In this document: piece by piece, positions 46,493-52,674 of the stretch
Layout of the letters: each line of letters begins with the position of its first letter
How positions within the stretch are numbered: the first letter of the stretch is position 1
Assembly (NCBI RefSeq): GCF_000241305.1
Contig: NZ_BAEH01000115.1
Span: 62,001 to 126,000, forward strand
Reading direction: 5' to 3'
DNA: 64,000 bases
Source of the DNA: Gordonia effusa NBRC 100432
GTDB taxonomy: Bacteria; Actinomycetota; Actinomycetes; Mycobacteriales; Mycobacteriaceae
Notes under the pieces: model-generated
Databases searched by the model: none
Seen by the model: only the letters and a program-made list of their open reading frames with translations
Told to the model about the DNA's origin: nothing
Made by a program: the position numbers and the translations under genes

Positions 46493-49400
46493 TCAATCAG
46501 TATCGAATATGTTCTCCGTGAACCCCAACGTGTCCGCGTTCTCTCGGATGACGCGTTGCCGCGACCGATCGAATCCGTTGGGTGCGGTGGCACGTATCGC
46601 TACGCGAACCTCGACGGAGACGCCCGATGCGGATAAGTGTTGCAGCACTTCCCGCTGGATAGTGGAAAAGTCGCGAACAGGGAGGTCGGGGTTGAGCTCG
46701 ACGGAGCCGAAGTATCGAGTCTGTGGAGTGAGCGTGGGTTCGGGCGGTCCGTCATCGGCCGCCCGGGTTGCGGCGCGGGGTTGACCAGTCGTGGCCAGTT
46801 CGTCGGCTAACCATTGTTGCTCAGCGAGCGCGACATCAGGTTTGACGATCAGCGCACTGTCGACCAGATAGGGATTCTCGGAGGCTCCGGGCAGAACGAG
46901 CCCGACATAGTGGCCGGTGGACTCGTCGTATGCGTCGGCGAACGCGAAACCGTTTGTGCTCCAGGCGGTGTCGTTGTAGACCGACAGGAGCCCATCGATC
47001 AAACTATCCCGATCGCGCAATCGGGTCAGGTAGGGATAGGTCGCGTAATAGGTATAGAGCTGGCCGACGGTGACGTGGCCGCTTTCCCAGGCCGGAGCGA
47101 GTGTGTTATCCAGGTCCATCCGAATGAGAGCGGCTGATCGGGACCGCGCGATCGCGTCGTCCAATTTGGTTGCCGTACGAGCGATAAGGTCGTCGGTGGT
47201 CCCCGCGGTGGAGGACATAGTCATCTCGTACGTCGCCTGTCCCGCTTGCTGTTTCGGATACACCGCCCAGACGAAGGTTTCCAGCAGACGAACATTCACG
47301 ATTTCGTCGGCGCGTGCCATCCGGTTCTTCGCCTGCTTTGTTTGCTGGCTACTGAGATTCAAGTCTTCCGCGTTCTCGGACACATATCGCCACGCGATGA
47401 AATCGCGGACAGCCGAGCCCAATTCCGGTGCGCGCTTGTCATCGGCGGTAAGGAAGACGAGCGAGTTCTTGTAGGTACGGTTTATCGCGCCCCGATGTTC
47501 GACGACGTCGGCGGCCCAGGTTCGGGCGGTGCTGGCCCCACGCGCCGAATGTGTGTACTTCATCGGGACGATGACCAGACGCGTCAGTTGTTCGTCGGAA
47601 ACCTCGGCGGATGAGGTCGGGAAGACATGAATGCCGCCGAAGGTGTTGTCGCGCGTGTGTTTTCGTGCCCGATTCAGACGGTCTTCGACCTCGGTCCAGA
47701 CGTCGGCGTCGGGAAGGTTCGCCGCGTGATCGCGTGCGGTCCGCGTTGTGTTCGCGTGGGTGTCGTACCAGAAGCGCGATGCCTCGGTGTAGAGATATGT
47801 CGAGCGATTGGTGAGGTGATCGAGTGCGGAATGAAAGTTGCCGGGTACATCACCGGGAATGGCCGTTCCCAGGAAGATTCGCGGTTTGTCGACGCCCTTG
47901 TGCGCGGTGTGCAGGGCGGGCGTCGCGGCCATAAATATTGCGCGGGCTAGTCTTTCGGCTATTCCGCGTTTGCCGAATAGGTCGTGGTCTTTGTCGACCT
48001 GGCGCGGGATCGCCCGTTTGCCCGCGACGTCGGTGTCGATGATGGGACGCCACGGATCGTCGAGGTAGTGGGATATCTCGGTGACGAAGTCGGCGCTTTC
48101 CAACGGGATTCCGCCCGGCAGGATCAGTGGTGCCTTGTCTTGCTCCTGCCATAGCGTCCCGACGATCTGATTCATTACGCGCAGGACACCGCGAGTTCGC
48201 TGGAACCGGTCCAGCGTCGACCAATCCTCGTAGAGACGATCGAATAGCTCTGGATGAATCGGGTAACACTGCTTGATGCGGTCGATATAGGCGTTCTCGC
48301 GGACCTCGTTCGGGAATTCCGTTGCGTGCGAACGGTAAAACTCGACTACCGCCTTCGCGATCGCACTGATCGTGGTCATCGTTGTACCGTCCGGAGTAGC
48401 GAAGATCCGTCGTCGGACGATCTCGAAACTCTCCTGCGCGTTCGCGGGCTGCCACTGGTCGGCCGTGCGTCCGACGATCTGTCGCAATCGAGCGAGGGCT
48501 TCGCGGCCGTGCTCGCCGCCAACTTCCTCATCACTGATCGCGTCCTGGCCGTCGGCCGGATTCGATGACGCCGGGATGGAGATGACTACCTGAACTCCCG
48601 CAGTCGCGTTGGCCGCTTCGGTGAGTGTTTGGGCGAAGGTGAATTGGGTGTCGAAGTCGCCGGCGGGGAGGTTGTCGGCGTTGATCAGTTGACGTGCGTA
48701 CGCGACCCATTCGTCGATCAGGATCACCGCGGGGGAGTACAGCGCGAGGAGGTCGCGTAACTCGGCGCCCGGACTTGTCGAGGTCCGGTCGGAATCAGCT
48801 ACGAGGTCGAAGGCTTCCTTACCTCCGAGCTGCCATGCCAATTCGCCCCACACCGTGCGAATTCCCGGTCGGCCATCGCGGGTATCAGCCCTGGCCGGCA
48901 CCAATTGGTTGCCGACGAGCGCTACCCGGCGAACGCCGTTGGTGAGTTGGTCGAGTGGTTTGGCAAGTGCGGCAACATCATCGGGATAGTGGTCGCTTGA
49001 CGTGCCGCTCGCCAGATGCCACAGTGCGAGCATCGAGTGGGTCTTGCCGCCACCGAAGTTGGTTTGCAGATTCACCACCGGCGACGCGTTCATATCACCG
49101 GTTAGGCGCCGAACGTTCCGGTTGATCAAGTCTCGAAGGCCATGTGTGAGGTAGGTGCGCTCGAAGAAGGATGCGGGGTCGGAGTATTCGGTGTTTTTCT
49201 TGGTGTCGGACGTCGGATTGGCGACGGAGTAGAGGTCAGCGGCGAATTCCGCGGCGTTGAAATTGCCGCTCGCTACGTCGGGATGTGGGGATAACACCTC
49301 TCGCCACGGCGGGAGATTGTCCGAGCCGACGGCCAGGTTTGGATTCGATCGTGCGGCGCTGGCGTCTTCGCGGTCGTGCGCGATCCGTACGACGTCGTTG

Positions 49401-52674: not shown

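Follow-up and report, generated by a model that had tools for sequence, protein, structure and literature searches.

An Hma locus of Gordonia effusa with intact HmaB and HmaC genes and relics of HmaA

Analysis of a 64,000-nucleotide stretch of the Gordonia effusa NBRC 100432 genome (contig NZ_BAEH01000115.1, positions 62,001 to 126,000; referred to as the window) revealed two adjacent genes corresponding to HmaB, a DUF1156 DNA methyltransferase, and HmaC, an ATPase with HEPN and DUF499 domains, of the Hma (helicase, methylase, ATPase) systems. The helicase gene hmaA has decayed to two short relics and is otherwise absent from the assembly. We favour, at roughly even confidence, the explanation that the locus derives from an Hma system under XRE control and that HmaB and HmaC may have been retained as a modification complex.

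The intact gene pair and the relics of HmaA

The features of the locus are as follows (window coordinates).
46493..49849, minus strand: HmaC, HEPN(Swt1)-DUF499 AAA+ ATPase (open reading frame, Pfam, PADLOC HmaC 800 bits)
49436..49798, minus strand: HEPN_Swt1 domain of HmaC (Pfam), with RNSLAH at 49508-49525
47555..48922, minus strand: best DUF499 stretch of HmaC, residues 310-765 (Pfam)
49909..52674, minus strand: HmaB, DUF1156 DNA methyltransferase (motif I LDPFAGGG, DPPYY; Pfam; PADLOC HmaB 1090 bits)
52881..52994, minus strand: HmaA relic, approximately residues 345-381 of Gordonia HmaA (at most 57% amino acid (aa) identity, one in-frame stop)
53104..53186, minus strand: relic of the HmaA 5′ end, collinear with the gene start in G025, the record of loci L078 and L118 (68% DNA identity, 84 columns)

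A DUF1156 and DUF499 gene pair had been recognized here in a preceding sequence-only reading, and both open reading frames are present on the minus strand, with Pfam matches to DUF1156 in HmaB (E 3.9e-31) and DUF499 in HmaC (E 5.4e-28). The HmaB frame (921 aa) begins with TTG, while that of HmaC comprises 1118 aa, the ATG at 49828 (1111 aa) being its likely start as judged by alignment. The PADLOC HmaC match spans residues 178-1116, i.e. everything except the HEPN part. The N-terminal Swt1-like HEPN domain proposed in that reading was confirmed: residues 18-138 match HEPN_Swt1 (PF18731; E 1.1e-26), and RNSLAH occupies residues 109-114, with R109 and H114 forming the Rx4H pair. Among 32 sequences R109 is invariant, and N110, A113 and H114 are each at least 90% conserved. 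By the Pfam match and the Rx4H motif, this is a predicted RNase domain. The Walker A motif of HmaC reads GGGKTH. Motif I and D-P-P-Y, also reported earlier, are readable in HmaB as LDPFAGGG and DPPYY, together with a CxxxxC..CxxC cysteine set (a putative zinc site). The DPPYY motif, the PADLOC label and PMC12839542 point to N6-adenine as the HmaB target; in PMC8565338 HmaB is described as an m5C enzyme. Sequence searches of solved structures gave no match for either the HmaB or the HmaC profile.

The genome holds a single HmaC. Of 69 related loci, twelve share at least 58% identity, and these twelve are all from Gordonia; the next best shows 46%. Two related loci have unusual compositions. L037 (2-9860) carries three tandem HmaB-like methyltransferase genes, the first of them truncated at the edge of the stretch, followed by one HmaC, and the HmaC of G038 (L113, 7528-10374) has no HEPN match, its N-terminus resembling the start of an SNF2 helicase (46-bit HmaA match), as if HmaA and HmaC were joined.

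At most other Gordonia loci an SNF2 helicase that carries a NOV_C domain (Pfam) lies upstream of HmaB, two examples of which scored 1282 and 1299 bits to PADLOC HmaA. When 27 HmaA proteins were compared with the window by tblastn, a match was found at 52994-52884, on the HmaB strand and between HmaB and an XRE-like gene; it was obtained with 13 of the queries at E ≤0.01, with a top identity of 57% over 35 residues. In a search of the whole 4.7-Mb genome with this HmaA segment (E ≤10; five candidates scored) the relic was the sole match (E 9e-6), reaching 38.9 bits vs 29.6 bits for the best of 1000 resampled intervals. Counting first and second codon positions, the relic differs by 24-31% from eight intact copies, which differ from one another by 0-19%. 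The second relic has an E value of 5.8e-6, derived from a two-record comparison. Since the two relics are collinear and the same flanks occur in G025, HmaA was once present and then decayed. The sequence-only reading had regarded a standard component encoded elsewhere as damaging to its proposal; the assembly lacks a full HmaA (best match 52.7 bits vs 1438-1866 for true HmaA), and the candidates elsewhere in the genome were rejected as generic helicases. No replacement nuclease was recognized among the scanned neighbour genes.

Hma was defined in PMC8565338 (Payne et al. 2021) and constitutes Type-1 of the DUF499-centred BREX-related (BR) systems according to PMC12839542. As in Hma, HmaB and HmaC of the window are adjacent on one strand, but HmaA is a relic, and the locus has in addition a divergent XRE-like gene and operator-like sites. 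The HEPN-DUF499 ATPase and the DUF1156 methyltransferase are shared with Type-1 BR systems (PMC12839542), but the window locus has lost the SNF2 helicase, usually bearing a fused PD-(D/E)XK nuclease, that serves as HmaA in these systems. With the ATPase and the methyltransferase present, HmaA surviving only as a relic and none in the genome, the locus is thus an Hma derivative rather than a complete member. The earlier statement that no complete known system matches is literally correct, but it passed over an incomplete known system, Hma, which matches at the PADLOC scores given above. Neither the HEPN fusion nor its pairing with DUF1156 is new: the ATPase is fused to HEPN in 1370 of the 2446 taxa of PMC12839542, and HEPN-DUF499 fusions beside restriction-modification genes were already reported in PMC3710099. 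Both proteins are also distant relatives of the NCBIfam families DUF499_antiphage and DUF1156_antiphage and of the DUF3780 type (Type-2 BR); their scores for the two families, 171.4 and 134 bits, are far below the curated cut-offs of 1200 and 1000. DUF3780 had no match in the genome, but none of 14 controls gave a signal either.

The XRE-like gene and operator-like sites

Besides the HmaA relics, the locus contains two elements that had escaped the sequence-only reading, i.e. a divergent XRE-like gene and shared operator-like sites.
53290..53610, plus strand: divergent XRE-like regulator, 106 aa (95% identical orthologue, syntenic in G025)
53241..53270, no strand: two operator-like palindromes 16 bp apart, before XRE and the former HmaA
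52717..52730, no strand: operator-like palindrome CACAACGAGTTGTG (12/12), before HmaB, at the same place in G025
49847..49859, no strand: weaker operator-like site before HmaC, below the 10/12 cut-off

The XRE label is our own, all matches to helix-turn-helix families being below curated cut-offs. The gene order of G025, greA - 109-aa gene - XRE - [HmaA] - HmaB - HmaC - two ClpP genes, is that of the window, but in G025 HmaA is intact (1782 bits), and a second XRE and other genes lie between HmaA and HmaB; its HmaB and HmaC are 75% and 68% identical to those of the window. Seven further Hma loci of Gordonia have a counterpart of the XRE-like gene (L010, L011, L013, L078, L102, L103 and L107), located beside HmaA, beside HmaB or downstream.

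The palindrome CACAACnnGTTGTG was found at gene starts of Hma loci. In eight XRE-bearing stretches there were 29 sites (≥10/12) in 8.7 kb around starts vs 13 in 169.6 kb elsewhere. The corresponding numbers for 15 stretches without XRE, some of which end before a possible XRE position, were 14 in 12.9 kb vs 15 in 289.7 kb, with nine of these stretches having no site near a start. These counts are not independent, as the pattern was derived from the counted loci and the sites are homologous between loci, some lying inside the HmaB start. Better sites than that of the window lie at the HmaC start in L102, L078, L103, L013, L109 and L017. We infer that the XRE protein controls HmaB and HmaC via these sites. 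Together, this gene and the recurrence of the site suggest that the Gordonia systems have a switch of their own. No paper combining XRE with Hma was found in the open-licence PMC literature, and "XRE" does not occur in PMC12839542.

Constraint on the pair and competing explanations

HmaB, HmaC and the HEPN domain all bear signs of constraint. There is no internal stop in the 2032 codons of the two genes, whereas simulated neutral drift of 0.1-0.2 per site introduced a mean of 17.9-33.0 stops (200 simulations each); at 0.02 per site the mean is just 3.5, and none is possible. Rough lineage dN/dS values, for codons fixed in reference copies, are 0.042 (HmaB) and 0.045 (HmaC). Within HEPN there are 3 nonsynonymous changes per 106 sites vs 13 synonymous per 29. 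Among columns invariant in wider alignments, one has changed in HmaB (G790S) and none in HmaC. HmaC has 13 private changes (1-15 in relatives), none of them at Gordonia-invariant sites of residues 1-300, and its rate, compared with four sisters and three outgroups, was accelerated in none of 12 triplets (lowest p 0.11), so relaxed selection on HmaC was rejected.

The favoured explanation starts from an XRE-controlled Hma (Type-1 BR) system, whose HmaA, an SNF2 helicase fused to a nuclease and taken to destroy unmodified DNA in the complete system, was lost by deletion and decay. HmaC, like BrxC in BREX, would license the methyltransferase HmaB, and the two would mark host DNA at the HmaB site, while the XRE protein and the sites before HmaB and HmaC would keep both genes expressed without HmaA. 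In BREX, BrxC and the methyltransferase are among several proteins required for methylation, whereas restriction as a rule depends on the full set (PMC12839542); by this analogy modification would fall to HmaB and HmaC, and restriction to HmaA. The pair would have been kept because together its members still form the modifying half. With the restricting half lost and the kept parts having their own operator-like sites, it could live on in that role, hence our preference for a modification complex. On this reading HmaB would methylate DNA in dependence on HmaC, and the pair would be of present benefit.

Several observations weigh against this explanation. BREX methylation requires three proteins beyond BrxC and the methyltransferase (PMC12839542), so two may not suffice, and we came across no Hma system whose methylation has been measured. 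A role in modification alone would not account for a constrained HEPN domain. In all 12 triplets formed from four sisters and three outgroups, HmaB evolved faster than the sister copy (p ≤0.018). It also has 36 private changes at positions fixed in ten relatives (3-26 in the others), half of them in residues 123-281; HmaB may therefore be relaxing. Both genes are mosaics, so the rates are approximate and the rate tests are weakened in both directions. The constraint estimates span the whole lineage, including the time before the loss of HmaA, and third codon positions differ by about half.

The same acceleration and private changes of HmaB also speak for a dying locus, where HmaA was lost first and HmaB and HmaC are now (nearly) neutral and still unbroken. 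This explanation, unlikely in our view but ranked second, would also accord with evidence that comes from a single genome and with another Gordonia copy, L107 (7432-17263), in which HmaA is intact, no open reading frame matches HmaB and HmaC is split into two frames. However, the stop-free frames contrast with the extensive drift of the relic, HmaC is not accelerated, invariant columns are almost unchanged, and the operator-like sites and XRE have been retained.

Ranked third, and likewise improbable, is that the pair is still active in immunity, with HmaC sensing invading or unmodified DNA, HmaB marking self and the HEPN RNase stopping the infected cell. The intact, constrained HEPN motif, the unchanged Gordonia-invariant sites and the steady rate of HmaC are consistent with it, and a suicide role of HEPN in complete systems was proposed in PMC12839542. 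The sequence-only reading had gone further and cast HEPN as a stand-in for the missing effector. HEPN, however, also occurs alongside HmaA and is a usual part of complete systems, and finding it here is therefore no proof of HmaA replacement; that interpretation as a whole is only partly supported.

The distribution of HmaA also argues against immunity by the pair. HmaA is retained in 22 of 26 genomes and, as assessed by eye, in each of the first 53 listed plasmid records that carry HmaC, one of them over 51% of HmaA only. It is missing from the fetched stretch at 46 of 80 HmaC loci, often merely at a contig or flank end; 15 of these were checked at genome level and the remaining 31 at stretch level. 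Ten of the 15 checked genomes carry a full HmaA (those of L016, L017, L022, L024, L029, L033, L037, L064, L108 and L111), so the existence of many other two-gene lineages was rejected. In L017, L029, L064 and L037 it is apparently on the same contig, approximately 2-20 kb upstream as judged by coordinates, while in the L033 genome it belongs to another Hma locus (L043). The L067 genome (a MAG) has just short HmaA pieces (≤97 bits), and at genome level none was found in G000, L025, L112 and L113. The survey for helicase-less pairs suggested earlier thus yielded no second clear two-gene case, with most HmaA-less stretches lacking a genome-level check.

More doubtful still is a self-sufficient, XRE-switched two-gene immunity, with methylation as the self mark and the HEPN RNase as sole effector. 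If true, gene loss alone could turn a BREX-related system that destroys DNA into an abortive defence acting by RNA cleavage. It is very improbable that an unrelated helicase or nuclease encoded elsewhere in the genome serves as the effector. In complete HEPN-bearing Hma systems a helicase-nuclease that cuts DNA and a HEPN RNase domain are present together. The strain resembles a natural HmaA deletion with methyltransferase, ATPase and HEPN largely constrained, and the function of the HmaB-HmaC pair by itself can therefore be studied in it directly.

Flanks of the Gordonia loci

The flanking 109-aa gene marks an insertion hotspot.
53663..53992, minus strand: 109-aa gene of the flank; a search of 41 Gordonia genomes gave matches in 24

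The hotspot comprises the interval from greA to an ABC transporter gene (window 44153-54173; L013; L103; L118-L121), within which Hma is found on either side of the 109-aa gene. Two ClpP genes occur in the window hotspot and adjoin Hma in L078, but not in L119-L121. Cluster c3 (family unassigned; 13 loci, median 614 aa), with no match in the window, directly follows HmaC in five Gordonia loci: L010 (13387-15246), L013 (13414-15291), L019 (13394-15286), L102 (5430-7292) and L103 (5359-7203). Its L013 member has weak PADLOC matches only, to NsnC and HEC-07.
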